Assembly (NCBI RefSeq): GCF_002788215.1
Contig: NZ_CP024845.1
Location: 2,170,001 to 2,234,000, forward strand
From: Halohasta litchfieldiae
GTDB taxonomy: Archaea > Halobacteriota > Halobacteria > Halobacteriales > Haloferacaceae
Direction of reading: 5' to 3'
DNA: 64,000 nt
Part shown: in pieces, positions 1 through 8,921 of the stretch
Layout: the number at the start of each line of letters is the position of its first letter
Numbering within the stretch: position 1 is the first letter of the stretch
Notes under the pieces: generated by a model
Seen by the model: the letters and a program-made list of their open reading frames with translations, nothing else
The model's database searches: none
What the model was told of the DNA's origin: nothing
Position numbers and translations under genes: made by a program

Positions 1-2
1 CC

Positions 3-2399
3 TCCGATGGCGGTGAGCCGGTGGCCGCCGAGTATTCGTCCGACGACGGTGGCTCTCAATCGTCGGCCGTCGACTGGCAGCATCTCTCTTCGAAGCTCTC
101 GACGGCAATGCAACAGTGCGCCGAGGGTGATCTCACTGTCCGACTCGACGTCGACCACGACGACGACAACGCCGCCGAGGTGGCACGGTCGTTCAACCAC
201 ATGCTCGATGAGTTCGAGGACACGATCCAGACCGTAGACGAGTTTGGCAATCAGGTCGAGGGCGCGACCGAGCGCGTGACCGGCCGCGTCGACGAGGTCA
301 AATCCGCGAGCAAGGAGGTCAGTCACTCCGTGTCGGGCATCTCGGACGATACCGCCAAACAACACGAGATGGTCGACGATCTCTCCAACGAGATCCGGTC
401 GCTGTCGGCAGCCACCGAGGAGGTCGCCTCCTCGGCCAACGAGGTCGCCGAAGCCTCCGAAACTGCCGCCCAGCGCGGCGAGAAAGGCCGCGAGCTGGCG
501 ACAAACGCCCTGGCCGAACTCGACGAGATCGATACGCGCACCAGCCGGACGCTGGAGGCCACCGAGGAACTCGACGAGCTAATTGGCGAGATCGAGGACA
601 TCGCGGAGTTCATCGGCGAGGTCGCCAGCCAGACCAACATCCTCGCGCTCAACGCCTCCATCGAGGCCGCCCGCGCCGGGGAAGCTGGCGAAGGGTTCGC
701 CGTCGTCGCAAACGAGGTCAAAAGTCTCGCCGAGGACGCCGAGGAGGCTGCCGGCGACATCGAGAAATCGATTGGCAACGTCCGCGAACAGGCCGACACC
801 ACCGTCGACGAGATGCACGAAACCCGCGAACGGATCGACGCCGGTGTCGACACCATCGAGGGCGCAGTCAAAACGTTCCGCGAGATCGCAGACGACGTCG
901 AAGAAACCAACGTCGGTGTCCAAGAGATCAGCGAGGCGACCGACAGTCAGGCGAACTCGCTGCAGGAGGCCGCTGCGATGGTCGACGACGTGGGCGATAT
1001 CTCCGACGAGACCGCCGAGCGGTCGGTGACGGCGGCCTCGGCGGCCGAACAGCAGACCACCGCGCTGGCCGAAGTCTCAACCGGTGTGACGACCCTCGAC
1101 GAACGGGTCGACACACTCGACAAACTGGTTAACTCCTACCAGACCCGTGATACCCGCTCCAAGACGTCCGTGGACGCGAACGTCACCTCCATCGAGTTCT
1201 GGCACGCGATGGGTGGCGAAAAGGGGCTGCTGCTCGAAGAGCTGATCCGGGAGTTCGAAGAGCAGGCCGACGGGATCCAGATCAACGCCACCTCGAAAGG
1301 CAGCTACCGCGGTACCTTCCAGTCGACGCTGTCGGCCGCCGAGAAGGGGTCCGGACCGGCGCTGGCCCAAATTTACGAGATCGGGACCGCCCAAGCCCTC
1401 GATAGCGGGGCGTTCACCCCCGTCGAGGGTGTCCTTCCTCGTAGCGTTTCGATGAGCGACTATGTCGACCCCGTGTTGAGCTACTACCGAACCAACGGTA
1501 CGCTGAACTCGATGCCGTTCAACTCCTCGGTGCCGATCCTCTGTTACAACGAGCAGGCCTTCGAGCGGGCCGGACTCGACCCCAACAACCCGCCGACAAC
1601 GTTCGCCGAGGTCACCAGAGCGGCCGAACAGATCGTCGACAACGGCGTCGCCGAGAAGGGAATCACCTTTGCCAACTACTCGTGGTTCGTCGAGCAGTGG
1701 TTCGCAACCGCGGGCCAAGAGATCGTCAACAAACAGAACGGCCGAGCCGGAACGCCCGACGAGGCCTTCTTCGACAGCGATGCGGCCAAGGAAATCTACA
1801 CCTGGTGGACCAACCTCGACCGAGAGGGACTGTATCACAACCCCGGCATGGAGGCCCGCGGGAAGGCCAAATCGGCGTTCTACGAGGGAACCGCGCCGAT
1901 GGTCATCGCCTCCTCCTCATCGGTGGGCGGAATTACCGACGAAGCCTCCTTCGATGTCGGTATCAGCGGCCACCCGACGCCCGGTCAGGGCGAGGGACTC
2001 ATTGTCGGCGGCGCGTCGCTGTGGGTCTCCGAATCGGCCACCCAAGACGAGCGGGATGCAGCTGGCGAGTTCCTCGCGTGGCTCACCCAGCCCGAACAGC
2101 AGGCCCACTGGCACCGCGAGACCGGCTACCTGCCGGTCCACGAGGGTGGTATCGACAAGCTAGAGCGAGATGGTTGGTTCCGACAGAACCCCGGCCACAA
2201 GGTCGCTATCGACCAACTGCTTTCAAGCAAGGACAGCCCCGCCACCAACGGCGCGCGGATCGGCCCGTTCAGCACGGTCCGCACGCTCGTCGGCGAGGCC
2301 TACCCCGACATGGTCGACGGGGATGTAGAGGAGGAACTCGCTCGGCTCAACGACCGGGTCGAACGACAGCTCGAATCCTACAGCCAAAATCAGCGATAG
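3..2399 (+). CDS. Methyl-accepting transducer fused to an extracellular-type solute-binding domain (5' partial)
   Basis: The reading frame is open to the left edge, so the true start lies outside the window; the GTG at 21 is only an internal candidate. The first visible part resembles a HAMP segment (DLTVRLDVD...[10 protein letters not shown]). A long methyl-accepting signalling coiled coil follows, with the conserved tip [20 protein letters not shown] around residue 200-220. From about residue 385 the protein becomes a UgpB/family-1 solute-binding module ([12 protein letters not shown], then [12 protein letters not shown] and [11 protein letters not shown]) that runs almost to the stop. The product should signal to CheA/CheW, sensing through the C-terminal module. 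No membrane segment separates the two parts in the visible sequence, so the binding module appears to lie on the cytoplasmic side, which is odd. Family calls are firm; the ligand is unknown, with a sugar or glycerol phosphate an inference from family only. Confidence 0.88.
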
Positions 2400-2468: not shown

Positions 2469-2762
2469 ATGGAACGCACACTGACTGTCGTCCCGGATGA
2501 TGGACTTCACGCACGCCCAGCAGCGACCTTCGTCGAAACCGCCGGTGGGTTCGACGCCAACATAACTGTCGAAGCTGTCGAGGGCAACCGCCCGGCAGTG
2601 TCGGCCGACAGCATGCTCGGCGTCACTGGGCTCGGTGTCCGTGGCGGTGACGAGGTCCGACTGGTCGCCACTGGTCCCGATGCCGAGGCTGCTCTCGACG
2701 CGCTCGAAGCGATTCTGTCGATGCCAGAAGACGAACTCGACGAGGCCGGTGGAACGCGGTGA
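2469..2762 (+). CDS. ptsH: Phosphocarrier protein HPr
   Basis: A 97-residue HPr, the small cytoplasmic carrier that takes phosphate from enzyme I and passes it to PTS acceptor proteins. The active-site motif GLHARPA is present near the N-terminus with the phosphorylated histidine at residue 14. A serine-containing segment (SADSMLGVTGLG) occupies the place of the regulatory Ser-46 region of bacterial HPr. The stop overlaps the start of the enzyme I gene by four bases (GTGA), so the two are surely co-translated. The only PTS acceptor in the window is DhaM at 6702-7082, which suggests that dihydroxyacetone phosphorylation is at least one use of this carrier. Confidence 0.95.
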   Translation: MERTLTVVPDDGLHARPAATFVETAGGFDANITVEAVEGNRPAVSADSMLGVTGLGVRGGDEVRLVATGPDAEAALDALEAILSMPEDELDEAGGTR

Positions 2763-4498
2763 GCCAACGACAGTTCGAGGGGATCGGTGCCACCCCAACG
2801 GTCGGTATCGGCACTGCGGTGTGGTACCGACCAACCAACGTCACTGACCTCGGCGAGCCACCACAGTCCGACAGCGTCGACCCAGCCGCTGAACGCGAGC
2901 GGTTCGACGCGAGCCAAGACGACGCCGAGGCCGAACTGAAAGCCGAACGCGAGCAAACACGAGAGCGTGTCGGCGACGAGGAGGCTGCGGTGTTCGACGC
3001 CCATCTCCAGTTCCTCCGGGATCCACAGATCGAATCCGGCGTCCAAGACGCCGTCGACGATGGCCTTCCGGCCCCACATGCGGTCAAACAGGCCTTCGAA
3101 GGCCCAATCGAGCAGTTCGAGGGGATGGACGGGATGATGGCCGAACGCGCCGACGACCTGCGGGATATCCGGGACCGCTTGCTCCGCCTGCTGACCGGCA
3201 GCGAGCGAACCGACCTCGGTGAGCTACCGGATGGCTCGGTCATCCTCGCAGAACTCCTTACACCGAGTGACACAGCCCAACTCGACCCGGAGGCGGTTGC
3301 GGGGATTGCGACGATCAAGGGCGGTCGAACCGCCCACGCCGCGATCATCGCCCGTTCGCTGGGGATTCCAGCGGTCGTCGGTATCGGTGAGGCTCTCCGA
3401 GAGATCGACGACGGCACACAGGTCGTCGTCGACGGTGAGGCCGAAGCCGTCATCGCCAACCCAAACGAAGAGACCCGCACGCGGGCCGCCGAGTCGACCC
3501 AAACACCGGTTATCAGCGAGTCAGTCTCGACTACCGACGGCACGGCCATCGAAGTCGCCGCAAATCTCGGCACGCCGGCCGAGGCCGAACCGGCGGTCGA
3601 CCGCGGGGCCGACGGTGTCGGCCTGTTCCGCACCGAGTTCTGCTTTCTCGACCGGCAGTCGCCGCCCGACGAAGCCGAACAGTTTGCGGCCTACCACTCG
3701 GTCTGTGAGACGTTCGCCGAGGGTGTCGACAGCGAGGCTACTGCCTCGAAGCCCGACAGCGAAGATGAGCCACGAATCGTCGTCCGCACGGCGGATATCG
3801 GCGGCGACAAACCCATCGACTATCTGGATATCGACGCTGAACAAAACGGCTTTCTCGGCGCACGCGGGGTTCGGCTCTCGTTGGAGGAACACGCTGACCT
3901 CTTTGAGACACAGCTCCGCGCCTTACTCCGTGTTGCGGCGACCGACGCCGGAGCGGGACTGGCGGTTATGTTCCCCCTCGTGTCGACGGTCGAGGAACTG
4001 GAGGCTGCACTCGACCGCGTTGAGGAGATTGCCGACGACCTCGACAGTGAGGGCGTCGACTACGCCATCCCCGAACTCGGTGTGATGATCGAAACCCCGG
4101 CCTCGACGTATCTGGCCGACACCTTCGCCGAGCGCGTCGACTTTCTGTCGATTGGAACCAACGATCTCACCCAGTACGTTCAAGCCGCCCAGCGGGATCT
4201 CGACCGGATGAACGATTATCAGGACCCACTGGCTCCCGGCGTGATCCGAGCCATCGACCGCACCGTCACCGCAGGCCACGCGGGCGGCGCGTGGGTCGGC
4301 ATGTGTGGCGAGATGGCCGGCGATCCGGACCTCACCGAACTCCTCGTCGGGCTTGGGCTCGACGAGCTCTCGATGAGCGCGGTCACGATTCCGGACGTCA
4401 AAACGGCAATCCAGGATGTCGACGTCGAGTCGGCCGAACAACTGGCTGCGTCGGTTCTCGACGCCGAGACGCGGGCCGACGTGTACGACCGGCTGTGA
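2759..4498 (+). CDS. ptsI: PEP-protein phosphotransferase (PTS enzyme I)
   Basis: A 579-residue enzyme I, the cytoplasmic enzyme that autophosphorylates with phosphoenolpyruvate and charges HPr. Three blocks are visible in order: an N-terminal HPr-binding region, the phosphohistidine swivel domain with GGRTAHAAIIARSLGIPAVVG (active His at about residue 193), and a C-terminal PEP-binding barrel with GLFRTEF, IGTNDLTQYVQA and the conserved cysteine in VGMCGEMAGD. Length matches the bacterial family (about 570). It starts with GTG inside the HPr stop codon. It converges on the ligase gene with only one base between the two stop codons. The family in haloarchaea is thought to derive from bacteria. 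Confidence 0.95.
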   Translation: MSQRQFEGIGATPTVGIGTAVWYRPTNVTDLGEPPQSDSVDPAAERERFDASQDDAEAELKAEREQTRERVGDEEAAVFDAHLQFLRDPQIESGVQDAVDDGLPAPHAVKQAFEGPIEQFEGMDGMMAERADDLRDIRDRLLRLLTGSERTDLGELPDGSVILAELLTPSDTAQLDPEAVAGIATIKGGRTAHAAIIARSLGIPAVVGIGEALREIDDGTQVVVDGEAEAVIANPNEETRTRAAESTQTPVISESVSTTDGTAIEVAANLGTPAEAEPAVDRGADGVGLFRTEFCFLDRQSPPDEAEQFAAYHSVCETFAEGVDSEATASKPDSEDEPRIVVRTADIGGDKPIDYLDIDAEQNGFLGARGVRLSLEEHADLFETQLRALLRVAATDAGAGLAVMFPLVSTVEELEAALDRVEEIADDLDSEGVDYAIPELGVMIETPASTYLADTFAERVDFLSIGTNDLTQYVQAAQRDLDRMNDYQDPLAPGVIRAIDRTVTAGHAGGAWVGMCGEMAGDPDLTELLVGLGLDELSMSAVTIPDVKTAIQDVDVESAEQLAASVLDAETRADVYDRL

Positions 4499-4499
4499 A

Positions 4500-5735
4500 C
4501 TAGCGGCTGGCGGATTTTAGCTGATACTCCCGGTAGGAATCCTCGAAGACGATCCGGTTCGTTTTCAGATCCCGCTCGATTTCCAGTGAGCCAGCGTCCT
4601 CGACTGCGGTCGGCACCGAGTCGACATGGTGGACGCGGATATGCTCGATCACACCGTCACCAACCGCACTAAACGCCTCTTTTATCGGTGGGCTCCGAGC
4701 GAACAGGTTCGTTCGGAACACTGCCCCGTCGGTGGGGTCGCCGCCAGCCACGTAGATGTCGACTGCGGGTTTCATCTCGGGACGAGAGACGACAGCGGTC
4801 CACTCGTCGATACCATGCCCATACGTCTCCTCGATGGCCGTCTGTAGCTGCTGTTCGTACAGCGGTGCCCCGCCGAGATTGATCGTATCGTCCTCCCGAC
4901 CCAGCACGCGGAGTCGGGGGATATCGTTGTCTTGGGGGAGTACCGTGACGATATCGCCGATTCGGTACCGGGTAAACGGAAACCCCTCCCGGTGTGGGTC
5001 CGACACAAGGAGTGAGCCGGTTCGCTGGCGTGTTAGCTCTCGGATGTCGACTGGTGTCCCCGTCTCGTCGTCGTCCGGGATGATCTCGAAGACGAGTTTG
5101 TCCACCAGCGGTACGAGCTTCTGTGTCTCGTCGGTTCCAACCGCGAGCACGTCCGCCTCGACGGAGCCGTACAGACTGCGAAGCTCCTCGAACCCCCACT
5201 GCTGGCGGAGCTGTGTCCGGAGATGCGGCGGGAGATGATCACCGAACAGCAATCCCAATCGGAGGTTCGGGAACACCTCGTGGGGCAGGCCGTAGTTGGC
5301 GGCGATTTCCTCGCCAATCGATTGGGCGACCAAAGGGGTTGCAAACAGCGCGGTGACCTCGGTTGCCTCTTGCCACTCGATTATTTGCTTGTAATCGTTG
5401 AACGACCGATTGAGGACGTCGGCCCCGAGTTCACGGGAGCCGGATCGACTCGCCCACCCCGAAATCCCGTCGAGCGGGGCGGCCAACGTCATCACGACAT
5501 CATCCGACTGGAGTCCTGCCAGTTCAAAGGCGTGGGCCTCGTGTCGTTTCTGGGCCGGGAGCTGTGTGTAGGCGTAGGGAATTCGTTTCGGCTCGCCGTT
5601 CGTTCCGGAGGTTTCGAACAGCATCGTCTCGTCTGTCGCGGCCTCCGCGCCGCGTGCTTCCAGCTCGGCGGCGGTGATGATGTCGTCGCCAGCGGTGTCG
5701 TGGTCGACGTGTTCGTTGTGCAGTGTGGGCGACAT
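4500..5735 (-). CDS. Adenylate-forming ligase, PaaK/LuxE-like
   Basis: About 411 residues. The phosphate-binding loop ETSGTNGEPKRIPY, the YRIGDIV motif and GREDDTINLGG are signatures of the ANL (acyl/aryl adenylate-forming) superfamily, closest in style to phenylacetate-CoA ligase and LuxE-like enzymes. Such enzymes activate a carboxylic acid with ATP, usually for transfer to CoA or a protein thiol. The ATG at 5735 lies just after the stop of the upstream methyltransferase (two-base gap), so the two form one transcription unit; an in-frame extension upstream would overlap that gene and is less likely. The substrate cannot be read from sequence. A C-terminal lysine (DLKTNRIV) could be the usual catalytic lysine. 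Placement beside the dihydroxyacetone kinase genes may be coincidental. Confidence 0.75.
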   Translation of the reverse strand: MSPTLHNEHVDHDTAGDDIITAAELEARGAEAATDETMLFETSGTNGEPKRIPYAYTQLPAQKRHEAHAFELAGLQSDDVVMTLAAPLDGISGWASRSGSRELGADVLNRSFNDYKQIIEWQEATEVTALFATPLVAQSIGEEIAANYGLPHEVFPNLRLGLLFGDHLPPHLRTQLRQQWGFEELRSLYGSVEADVLAVGTDETQKLVPLVDKLVFEIIPDDDETGTPVDIRELTRQRTGSLLVSDPHREGFPFTRYRIGDIVTVLPQDNDIPRLRVLGREDDTINLGGAPLYEQQLQTAIEETYGHGIDEWTAVVSRPEMKPAVDIYVAGGDPTDGAVFRTNLFARSPPIKEAFSAVGDGVIEHIRVHHVDSVPTAVEDAGSLEIERDLKTNRIVFEDSYREYQLKSASR

Positions 5736-5737
5736 CG

Positions 5738-6580
5738 TTAGGACTCGGTTTCCAGTACGTAGAGTGGAATCTCTGGACCTGCCTGTGGGTTTGCCCGCTG
5801 TTCCTCGACGACTGATTCGGCCCACTCTCGACGCTCGTCGTCATCGAGTAGTTCCATCGGATACAACAACCCAGCTGCGTCGGCCGAAAGCGTGTCCTGC
5901 CGAACAACCGAGAGGCCACGCTGTTCGAACACCGTTTTCAGCCGGTCTTCCGGGAACGCGTACTGATGCCAGCTCGTCTGCTCGCCGTCGACGGTAATGT
6001 CGGTCATCTCCATATACGGCAGCTCCCGTTTTTCGTCCCATCCGGCGAACTCGGGGAACAGTTCGGTGGCCGTCTCATCCGGCACGGTGAGTATCAGTAT
6101 TCCGTCTTCGCTCAGGGCCTCGGCTAGTGCGCGTATCATCCTGAGTGGATCGGCCGTATCCTGCACCATATTGATTGCATAGATAACATCCAGCGGCCGA
6201 AGCTCCGGGAGTACGCGTTCGGCATCACCACCGACAACGACGACGTTCTCGCTGTCGACAAACCGACCCTGTGCGACGTCGTATGCACCGGCTGCAAACT
6301 CGATACCGAGTACTTTCGACGACTGATACCGCTCAGCGAGCGCCGCGGTGAGCACACCGGCTCCACAGCCGATATCGCCGATCCGACAGGCTGACTGGTC
6401 GGTCAATCCAGCCGTCTCGGCCGGTATCTGGAGTAGCTCTTCGCGGGACTCCCCCACTCCCGTCGGTGAGATCCAACTGACCGAGTCGGTGTCCAGTCGC
6501 TGTGATGCAATAAAATCAGCAACCTCTGTCCGTGTCTCTGACCGTTGTTGTGGGTCTGTGAGCGAATCCTGTCCAACCAT
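5738..6580 (-). CDS. SAM-dependent methyltransferase (class I)
   Basis: 280 residues with a clear Rossmann methyltransferase core. Motif I is IGDIGCGAGVLTAAL (about residues 87-101), followed by the acidic ligand in VLGIEFA and the motif-IV-like region LDVIYAINMVQDTADP. The C-terminal part probably shapes the acceptor site; the acceptor is unknown. The gene immediately precedes the adenylate-forming ligase with a two-base gap, so the pair may modify or activate the same small carboxylic acid. Its upstream region (about 6581-6660) is strikingly AT-rich for this genome and probably holds its own promoter, which separates it from the dha genes. Confidence 0.82.
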   Translation of the reverse strand: MVGQDSLTDPQQRSETRTEVADFIASQRLDTDSVSWISPTGVGESREELLQIPAETAGLTDQSACRIGDIGCGAGVLTAALAERYQSSKVLGIEFAAGAYDVAQGRFVDSENVVVVGGDAERVLPELRPLDVIYAINMVQDTADPLRMIRALAEALSEDGILILTVPDETATELFPEFAGWDEKRELPYMEMTDITVDGEQTSWHQYAFPEDRLKTVFEQRGLSVVRQDTLSADAAGLLYPMELLDDDERREWAESVVEEQRANPQAGPEIPLYVLETES

Positions 6581-6701: not shown

Positions 6702-7082
6702 TCAGGATAGCTTTCGGTAGGTCTGTGCTTCTTCGGCCTTCTCGACGACGCTGTCGACGGTGGCCTTTTTACTGGTGGCTTCGACAGCCGCGTTGAGTGT
6801 CCCTTCGAGAATCGGGGCATCGGCGATTACCGCCTCAGTGTCACCCATCTCGATAGCGAGTTCGGCGTTCATCACTGCGCTGCCGAGGTCGACAAGGACG
6901 ACGACTCCCTCACCGTCGTCGGCGGCCTCGATCTTCTCTTGGATTCGTGTGGCGTCGGTACCGATCTCGCCGTCATCGCCGCCCGCGGGTTTGAGTGGGG
7001 CGTCGCCACCCATCTCGGCGGCGAGTTCGCAGATCCCCTCGGCGGCTTTCGCGCTGTGGGAGACGACAACGAGTCCGATCAC
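6702..7082 (-). CDS. dhaM: PTS-dependent dihydroxyacetone kinase, phosphotransferase subunit DhaM
   Basis: 126 residues of the EIIA-mannose fold. The N-terminus IGLVVVSHSAKAAEG places the phosphorylated histidine at residue 9, followed by VVVLVDLGSAVMNAELAIE, typical of DhaM. It takes phosphate from HPr and re-phosphorylates the ADP bound to DhaL. Unlike the E. coli protein, which also carries HPr- and enzyme I-like domains, this is a single domain and must depend on separate HPr/enzyme I such as those at 2469-4498. The GTG start overlaps the dhaL stop by four bases, giving tight coupling. Confidence 0.93.
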   Translation of the reverse strand: MIGLVVVSHSAKAAEGICELAAEMGGDAPLKPAGGDDGEIGTDATRIQEKIEAADDGEGVVVLVDLGSAVMNAELAIEMGDTEAVIADAPILEGTLNAAVEATSKKATVDSVVEKAEEAQTYRKLS

Positions 7083-7798
7083 GCGTCGTCCTCATCTGCG
7101 TCGGGTGTTTCGTCCGGAATCGTCGGCGAGCGGGCGTCGACATCGGTCTCGCCATCGAGGTAGTCGTCGGCTACCGACAGTAACTCCTGCATAATGAACC
7201 ACGTCGAGGTCGCACCGGGGTCTTGATGGCCGACCGACCGCCAGCCCAGATAGGAGGCTCGTCCCTTCTGTGCCCGGATCGGAACGGTGAACTCCACGCC
7301 ACGTTCGGCGGCCGCGGTCGACTTTGCGAGGGCGGTCAGCGGTGGCAGATCGTCGACCTCAATCGACTTTTTGTAGGTGTGGACCGCCGGCGTCAGCGCG
7401 TCGACCATCGTCTTTGCGCCGAGTTGTGCATCGCCCCGATCTTTGACTTTCTCCAAATACGCCTCCGCGAATGCAACTGAAGTTTCGGCGGTCACTCCGT
7501 CGTCGAGCGTCTGGCTGGCGCTCATAATCGATCCTCCATACAGTGGGCCCGAGGCCCCGCCGACCTTCGAGATCAGCGTGACGCCCATCTTTTTGACCAA
7601 CTCTTGGGGCGTCGACTCGGTGTCGTCTTTGACTGCATCGGCGGCTGCCCGAAAGCCGCGGGCGAGATTCGAACCGTGGTCGGCATCACCAATCGCTGAA
7701 TCCAGCTCAGTCAAATACTCTTTTTCGGCCTCAAGCCGGTCGGCGACCGCTTCTGCGGCTGCCCGAATTGCTTCCTGCTGTGTCTCTTCATCTACCAT
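7079..7798 (-). CDS. dhaL: Dihydroxyacetone kinase, ADP-binding subunit DhaL
   Basis: 239 residues. DhaL holds a tightly bound nucleotide and carries phosphate from DhaM to the substrate bound in DhaK. The magnesium/nucleotide motif SAIGDADHGSNLARGF is near residues 33-48, and GVTLISKVGGASGPLYGG and RASYLGWRSVGHQDPGA are also typical. The acidic C-terminal extension (about 25 residues) is haloarchaeal in style. A TATA-like element about 30 bases upstream (7824-7834) suggests it can be transcribed independently of dhaK. It overlaps dhaM by four bases. Confidence 0.95.
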   Translation of the reverse strand: MVDEETQQEAIRAAAEAVADRLEAEKEYLTELDSAIGDADHGSNLARGFRAAADAVKDDTESTPQELVKKMGVTLISKVGGASGPLYGGSIMSASQTLDDGVTAETSVAFAEAYLEKVKDRGDAQLGAKTMVDALTPAVHTYKKSIEVDDLPPLTALAKSTAAAERGVEFTVPIRAQKGRASYLGWRSVGHQDPGATSTWFIMQELLSVADDYLDGETDVDARSPTIPDETPDADEDDA

Positions 7799-7925: not shown

Positions 7926-8921
7926 TCAGACGGTGAGTCCGGGCGTATCGGCCGTGGCAGTGAGGAGTTCTTTGAGCTCCTCGTCGACCGCCGCGATGGT
8001 GATCGAGGCTCCCATCATATCGAGGGAAGTCATGTAGTCGCCGACCCACGCGTCCCACGCTTCGAGGTCGTGGTCGTCGACGATCTCTTGGAGTCTGCGG
8101 TTGAGGATGAACAGCTCGGACTGCGGAGTGCCACCCATGCCGTTGACCATCGTGATGATCTCTTGGCCCTCGTCGAGATCAAGGTCTTCGAGGACCTTCT
8201 CGGTGAGGTGATCGGTGATTTCGTCGGCGCTCATCATGTCGACGCGCTCGGTGCCCGGCTCGCCGTGAATCCCGATTCCGAGTTCGATTTCGTCCTCCGG
8301 TAGATCAAACGTTGGCTCACCCTTGTCGGGTGTGACACAGGAGGTGAGTGCGACCCCCATTGTCGCGACGTTGTCGATCATCTTGTTGGCGACGCGTTCG
8401 ACCTCGTCGAGATCCGCGCCCTCGGCGGCTTTTGCCCCCGCAACTTTGTGAACGAAGATCGTGCCCGCAACGCCCCGTCGACCACTGGTATATAACGAGT
8501 CTTCGACGGCCACGTCGTCGTTGACGACCACCTGTCTGACATCCGCGTCCTCCATTTCGGCCATCTCACCAGCTGTTTCGAAGTTCATCACGTCGCCTTC
8601 GTAGTTTTTGACGACACAGAGGACGCCTTCGCCGGAGTCACAGGCCTGGATCATCTCGTTGAGCTGGTCGGCAGTCGGCGAAGTGAACACCTCACCGGCA
8701 GCCGCCCCATCCAACATTCCGTCGCCAATAAAGCCAGCGTGTGTGGGTTCGTGACCACTCCCACCGCCGGAGACGATTCCAACTTTGCCCGAAACGGGTC
8801 CGTCAGCCCGGACAAGTACTTCGATATCATCCAACCGGCGCAGCCGTTCCGGATACGCCGCGACCATTCCATCGAGCATTTCGTCGACGACTGCCTCCGG
8901 ACTGTTGATGAGTTTCTTCAT
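7926..8921 (-). CDS. dhaK: Dihydroxyacetone kinase, substrate-binding subunit DhaK
   Basis: 331 residues, the usual DhaK length. It binds dihydroxyacetone covalently through a histidine and receives phosphate from DhaL to make dihydroxyacetone phosphate, feeding glycolysis/gluconeogenesis. Visible signatures are the glycine-rich loop VSGGGSGHEPTHAGFIG (about residues 50-66) and GIGIHGEPG, which contains the substrate-binding histidine. The start is ATG at 8921; a TATA-like string lies roughly 30 bases upstream on the minus strand. It is the first gene of the minus-strand dha series and diverges from the phosphoglycolate phosphatase gene. Confidence 0.96.
   Translation of the reverse strand: MKKLINSPEAVVDEMLDGMVAAYPERLRRLDDIEVLVRADGPVSGKVGIVSGGGSGHEPTHAGFIGDGMLDGAAAGEVFTSPTADQLNEMIQACDSGEGVLCVVKNYEGDVMNFETAGEMAEMEDADVRQVVVNDDVAVEDSLYTSGRRGVAGTIFVHKVAGAKAAEGADLDEVERVANKMIDNVATMGVALTSCVTPDKGEPTFDLPEDEIELGIGIHGEPGTERVDMMSADEITDHLTEKVLEDLDLDEGQEIITMVNGMGGTPQSELFILNRRLQEIVDDHDLEAWDAWVGDYMTSLDMMGASITIAAVDEELKELLTATADTPGLTV

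Follow-up and report, generated by a model that had tools for sequence, protein, structure and literature searches.

A haloarchaeal chemoreceptor with a C-terminal UgpB-type binding domain, predicted to sense glycerol 3-phosphate inside the cell

Introduction

In the haloarchaeal BasT/BasB and CosT/CosB systems, the transducer spans the membrane and a separate binding protein on the outside recognizes the ligand. Here we describe a transducer gene of Halohasta litchfieldiae whose product would likewise owe its ligand recognition to a solute-binding protein (SBP). Whereas the binding protein is separate and external in BasT and CosT, here it is covalently attached at the C terminus in a single polypeptide and is predicted to lie inside the cell.

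Car (Htr11) of Halobacterium salinarum is a haloarchaeal cytoplasmic nutrient transducer, for arginine, and its description mentions no SBP domain in the part cited (PMC3579733). Soluble receptors of the TlpD type are also cytoplasmic and carry their sensor after the signalling hairpin, as the fused protein does, according to the part cited of a preprint (PMC12871147); the TlpD sensor CZB is a zinc-binding helical domain, whereas that of the fused protein is a two-lobed binding protein. UgpB, the glycerol 3-phosphate-binding protein of a CUT1 ABC transporter (structures 4AQ4, 6X84 and 9LFF), has its fold and eight of nine ligand contacts in common with the fused domain. UgpB is exported and feeds permeases, whereas the fused domain has no export pattern, is joined to a signalling domain and is encoded at loci without ugpA or ugpE.

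Solute-binding proteins have been described as extracytosolic, and many members of their Pfam families as cytosolic proteins or signalling sensor domains (PMC9602780, in the part cited). Glycerol is named as one of the main carbon sources that algae provide in salterns (PMC5228507, in the part cited). The parts of the present receptor are known; what is new is the combination of a cytoplasmic binding-protein sensor with a predicted catabolic-intermediate ligand. No description of an MCP–SBP fusion was found among the titles and abstract openings listed from the open-access literature searched, and an account of it may already have been published. The comparison presented below points to a conserved internal sensor that has an intact predicted pocket and would derive from a solute-binding protein.

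Architecture of the fused gene

The window, the whole 64,000-nucleotide stretch analysed, covers positions 2170001–2234000 of a genome assembled as a single contig of 3,332,022 bases. Its first 798 codons (bases 3–2399) form a stop-free single frame, which the earlier note had read as a methyl-accepting signalling domain continuous with a complete, C-terminal UgpB-like module. Domain profiles and the full-length gene confirm this layout. With the left flank included, as that note had advised, the frame spans 949 codons from stop to stop and encodes 929 aa from its first ATG (G000:C1:2169610, 391 bp left of the window edge). The protein begins with a basic start and a hydrophobic stretch (residues ~21–58), followed by an acidic low-complexity linker and then HAMP. 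All three domains exceed their Pfam cut-offs: HAMP at 30.2 bits against 25, the MCP signalling domain at 142.5 against 34.6 and, in window residues 413–714, SBP_bac_8 at 143.5 against 27 (E 1.1e-41) (Table 1).

Table 1 Features of the fused gene and its right-hand neighbours, in window coordinates
Feature	Position	Strand	Basis or remark
Fused chemoreceptor gene, 3′ part	1..2399	+	Frame from base 3; full gene 929 aa
HAMP (PF00672)	93..218	+	Window aa 31–72; full-length residues 162–203
MCP signalling domain (PF00015)	453..998	+	Window aa 151–332, E 7.9e-42; full-length residues 294–463
UgpB-type solute-binding domain (PF13416/PF01547)	1167..2396	+	Full-length residues about 520–929
HPr (PTS phosphocarrier)	2469..2762	+	Next downstream, 69 bases past fused-gene stop
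PTS enzyme I	2759..4498	+	ORF list and domain profile
DhaM-like EIIA-man protein	6702..7082	-	ORF list and domain profile
DhaL	7079..7798	-	Label from position and sequence
DhaK, dihydroxyacetone kinase Dak1 domain	7926..8921	-	ORF list and domain profile

An AlphaFold model of the fused protein (mean pLDDT 64.7, pTM 0.50) has high confidence for most of the binding domain, middling to low confidence for the signalling hairpin, and very low confidence without usable structure for residues 1–151. In this model, a short linker, with the helix ending at residue 508 and the first domain strand starting from 526, attaches the SBP domain where the second helix of the hairpin stops, at the HAMP-proximal end. 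The C-terminal CZB domains of TlpD, which straddle the coiled coil, provide a precedent for this sensor placement (PMC12871147, preprint, in the part cited).

A TATA-like TTTATTTTAA lies 23–32 bases upstream of the ATG, a spacing that would fit a leaderless archaeal transcript. An IS element is inserted to the left of the window, at about G000:C1 2168502–2169570 (L009:8502-9570 in our map of the locus, with a DDE transposase at L009:8551-9549), and stops about 8 bases short of the TATA-like box. The motif ACACAAG occurs at both junctions as a 6–7-bp target repeat, and the same site is uninterrupted by the IS in Halohasta salina (L061). The insertion may have cut off upstream control of the fused gene.

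Distribution of the fusion

Of the 392 Halobacteriales genomes searched, 62 have a match to the fused domain in a long frame, by our own count of matches of at least 47% identity in frames of at least 606 aa. The conservation among species that the earlier note had asked for extends to three families of the order (f1, f4 and f7). Conservation in this many genomes rules out chance, an assembly error or a frameshift as the source of the fusion.

The MCP half is seen by alignment in 41 of the 62 carriers, the other 21 being called by frame length; one of the 41 (G234, L041) has a 606-aa frame with part of the MCP domain only. An additional genome (G233, L057) has the fused gene split over two frames. 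Frames of 455–548 aa hold almost all of the remaining matches listed, which were taken as unfused; among these, G299, with 548 aa and cut where its contig begins, was excluded from the 62. None of five matches with 37–38% identity and frames of 759–798 aa (G021, G068, G228, G317:C30 and G334) was counted as fused, and two of these genomes yielded rejected candidates, the loci L051 (G228) and L052 (G021) being single 459-aa lipoprotein-type frames. Also rejected was a giant GlpK–MCP–SBP fusion in L102 (2402 aa), the frame of which crosses a 3.9-kb block of N.

In a scan of named genomes, 14 of the 81 SBP frames at the best 80 loci have the MCP half, 13 of them in records named as haloarchaea and one in an ‘uncultured archaeon’. 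The named carriers are Halohasta salina, Halonotius pteroides, Halobiforma nitratireducens, Halorubrum, Haloarcula, Haloferax and two Halobacteriales archaea. An MCP match was absent from the other 67 SBP frames of these best 80 loci, and the fusion was found there only in the records just listed; remote bacterial fusions are possible.

Location of the binding domain

Beyond residue 60 of the fused protein, no 19-residue segment has a mean hydropathy above 1.0, which confirms that no membrane segment separates the MCP and binding modules. CheW and CheA are cytoplasmic. With nothing hydrophobic past residue 60, the chain cannot cross a membrane between the signalling tip and the binding domain, which supports a location of the latter in the cytoplasm.

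The N termini of the homologues agree with this placement. Our check covered 37 fused sequences, from which a repeat genome (L026), a contig end (L070) and the 606-aa frame (L041) were left out. Among the remaining 34, an N-terminal membrane segment is absent in 30, a count that includes two (L045 and L060) with one hydrophobic segment only, upstream of a start methionine picked by eye; the other 28 have no such segment. Judged by the lack of a membrane segment, the mark of the cytoplasmic haloarchaeal transducers Car, Htr13 and Htr15, the fused family is divided between these 30 and the window copy with four relatives. Four homologues (L061, L062, L063 and L068) have the same N-terminal hydrophobic stretch as the Halohasta litchfieldiae copy and, together with L070, which is incomplete at a contig end, are its nearest relatives in the tree described below. 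In this group, the stretch consists of two hydrophobic runs around a polar turn (SSLTD in the window copy). The two runs probably form a tight hairpin with both ends inside, tethering the window copy and its close relatives to the membrane, a topology left unproven by the very low model confidence of the first 151 residues.

A combined twin-arginine and lipobox-like pattern is found at none of 32 fused N termini versus 25 of 28 unfused ones, and a looser version is visible by eye in the three unfused N termini that miss it. For this set, as for the tree and the conservation analysis, only domains of at least 350 aa were kept, which excluded both pieces of L057. We regard a BasT/CosT-like arrangement, with the binding domain exported or external after all, as highly improbable. 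The window copy does have one N-terminal hydrophobic block, which, read as a single pass, would give an N-in, C-out protein, and at L090 (below) an SBP of the same family is encoded on its own, as a lipoprotein-type protein next to a transducer that has two hydrophobic segments. However, a C-out orientation would put the signalling tip outside too, given that nothing hydrophobic lies between the two domains. We ruled out an external module on hydropathy, on the 30 homologues without a membrane segment and on the missing export pattern; of the grounds for refutation named in the earlier note, a membrane segment between the modules was not found in the window copy, nor was the export pattern at the 32 fused N termini. 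The suggestion in that note that the module is cytoplasmic and may sense an intracellular ligand is accordingly supported by topology, conservation and export pattern, with localization and binding both inferred.

Origin of the binding domain

In a tree of 60 binding domains, a single branch with support 100/99 separates all 32 fused domains from the 28 others, and none of 500 label shuffles gave a fused/unfused split as low. The broken fused gene of L057 had been placed in the unfused tally of 29 maps; the true unfused loci number 28, and its glpK was left out. ugpA is present at 24 of these 28 loci versus none of the 32 fused loci, from all of which ugpE is absent as well. Genes for ugpC-type ATPases (28–30% identity) occur at three fused loci. 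The fused domains form a clade of single origin, and the neighbours of this clade are Tat-type lipoproteins encoded at Ugp transporter loci.

This tree, rooted at its midpoint, is naturally read as capture of the domain from a lipoprotein that was exported, but does not prove it. The Tat pathway exports proteins that are already folded, which would readily explain how a domain of this kind could function in the cytoplasm with little adaptation. On balance, we lean towards an evolutionary scenario in which a Tat-exported, glycerol-phosphate-binding lipoprotein was captured once, kept in the cytoplasm and coupled to CheA, often beside glycerol kinase. The result would be an archaeal receptor class for taxis by the level of an intracellular catabolic intermediate, read through the clamp of a binding protein.

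A separate transducer gene was found near unfused relatives at one of 28 loci (L090). There, in genome G220 (L090:8072-12149), a divergent lipoprotein-type SBP of the same family is encoded head to head with an 816-aa transducer that has two hydrophobic segments; this pair is the classical arrangement of separate SBP and transducer.

Binding pocket

Among solved relatives, a sequence search ranked E. coli UgpB first (E 1.2e-60). In structure comparison, the domain matches UgpB 6X84 with Z 52.9 and 1.5 Å over 402 residues, and UgpB 4AQ4 and 9LFF with Z 47.8 and 46.8, at 31% identity. The label ‘UgpB-like’ was therefore right by sequence search and by fold; the NCBIfam UgpB equivalog NF008211 scores 237 bits, under its cut-off of 411.

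Nine contacts to glycerol 1-phosphate (G1P) and glycerol 3-phosphate (G3P) are named in Phaeobacter UgpB (PMC12718374, in the part cited). We mapped them by alignment, a single offset fitting all nine. Eight are identical in all 32 fused domains: the phosphate contacts Y64, S143, S266 and Y342, the hydroxyl contacts E88, G303 and R393, and the clamp residue W191. The corresponding residues of the window copy are Y566, E590, S640, W692, S768, G801, Y840 and R891. The ninth, the clamp tryptophan W188, is replaced by Asn in 26 and Thr in 6 of the 32 fused domains (N689 in the window copy) and by Asn in 28 of 28 unfused ones, which suggests a shifted specificity across the haloarchaeal SBP family.

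With this tryptophan changed in all aligned domains, the ligand of the same cytoplasmic receptor could be another glycerophosphate: a glycerophosphodiester such as glycerophosphocholine (GPC), or G1P from lipid metabolism. The published analysis of the pocket fits such a ligand, in that both tryptophans arose as the pocket narrowed from GPC-binding proteins to UgpB and in that UgpB binds G1P and G3P alike (PMC12718374, in the part cited), and the structures matched by fold include that of M. tuberculosis UgpB with GPC. We nevertheless consider this reading unlikely, as the repeated genomic linkage, presented below, is to glpK and glpA, whose products make and use G3P.

Mean conservation is 0.98 at the nine contact sites versus 0.70 overall, and none of 10,000 random nine-column sets is as conserved. 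Among nearer unfused relatives, R393 is kept in 17 of 17 and E88 in 14 of 17, and in all 11 distant ones, including the second copy in the same genome (L056), both residues are lost. A domain retained as a passive relic, a spacer or dimerization module that binds nothing, is very hard to reconcile with such pocket conservation, or with fused domains having kept two positions that the distant homologues changed.

Linkage to glycerol genes

The genes to the left of the fused gene are, in order, glpC-glpB-glpA (left-facing), glpK, a gene for a 326-aa membrane protein, an Orc1/Cdc6-like gene and the IS; to its right follow HPr, enzyme I, two left-facing genes and a left-facing dhaM-dhaL-dhaK. Here, glpA was identified by profile scan, and glpB and glpC are our own labels.

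glpK lies directly downstream of the fused gene, on the same strand and 129–218 bp past the SBP match, in 20 of the 62 carriers, all of family f4. It is within 10 kb in at least 26 carriers, a lower bound in that the partial glpK at a contig end in G168 (L063) missed the cut-off and draft contig ends may hide others; it was not found within 10 kb in 36, including all of genus g2 and six of seven in g7. Anywhere in the genome, glpK is found in 60 of 62 carriers versus 13 of 20 match-free f1 genomes (Fisher p 0.0005), counts that are not independent, with the adjacent glpK cases confined to one family (f4) and the 20 controls to another (f1). Nine intact f4 maps were drawn, and in four of them (L043, L046, L078 and L079) the fused gene sits between a left-facing glpA and glpK. 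Together, the retained pocket and the linkage to glpK suggest G3P as the predicted ligand.

Other neighbours vary. In L074 (genus g2, probably Halorubrum), a glycerate 2-kinase-like gene, which scores below the model cut-off, lies three genes away from the fused one, and in L067 the upstream neighbour encodes an alpha-glucan phosphorylase. The Halohasta litchfieldiae genome has two more glpK copies (G000:C1:662959-664476 and 935193-936719), which share 97% and 82% identity with the glpK close to the window. The 326-aa membrane-like protein encoded right after glpK (L009:6141-7121) has no Pfam or NCBIfam match and is a candidate glycerol facilitator; of the 32 fused maps, 7 show it near glpK. 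The Orc1/Cdc6-like AAA+ protein (L009:7277-8446) is encoded in 7 of the 32 fused maps and in 5 of the 29 others, one of the latter being the broken L057; it falls under the Orc1 cut-offs, has a weak Lrs14-like match at its C terminus and is possibly a regulator, not a replication protein.

Signalling and proposed mechanism

Just ahead of the MCP signalling stretch, at full-length residues 266–275, a methylation-like motif is present in 26 of 26 aligned sequences. The genome itself has 11 MCP genes above cut-off, eight archaellin-family matches and two CheW-domain genes, one with a frame of 161 aa and the other, presumably CheA, with a frame of 735 aa. A working taxis system is plausible with MCP, CheW-domain and archaellin genes all present.

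From its sequence and modelled fold, the fused protein is probably a cytoplasmic G3P chemoreceptor that uses a former Ugp-type binding protein as its sensor and reports glycerol catabolism to CheA. Glycerol would enter the cell and be converted by GlpK into sn-glycerol-3-phosphate, on which the SBP domain would close, as other binding proteins do. Through the short linker, this closure would change packing at the HAMP-proximal end of the receptor dimer and, via CheW, alter CheA activity and archaellum switching, and the cell would follow glycerol through its own catabolic intermediate. Archaeal lipids are built from glycerol 1-phosphate, so the 3-phosphate would reflect the use of glycerol fairly cleanly. 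If true, this mechanism would give a concrete molecular route for metabolism-dependent taxis to glycerol in widespread haloarchaea.

The receptor could instead signal through CheA-like partners to an output other than swimming, for example control of the surrounding glycerol, PTS and dihydroxyacetone genes with the SBP domain supplying the metabolite input. The gene for HPr adjoins the fused gene not only here but also in L062, L063 and L070, and that for enzyme I does so in L061; DhaK, DhaL and DhaM are also encoded close to the fused gene in the window. We judge this output quite unlikely, however, with the signalling tip and the methylation-like motif conserved and CheW-domain genes and archaellins present in the same genome. 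Between the PTS genes and dhaM, at window positions 4500–6580 on the minus strand, we noted by eye an adenylate-forming/acyl-ligase-like gene that overlaps a methyltransferase-like gene.
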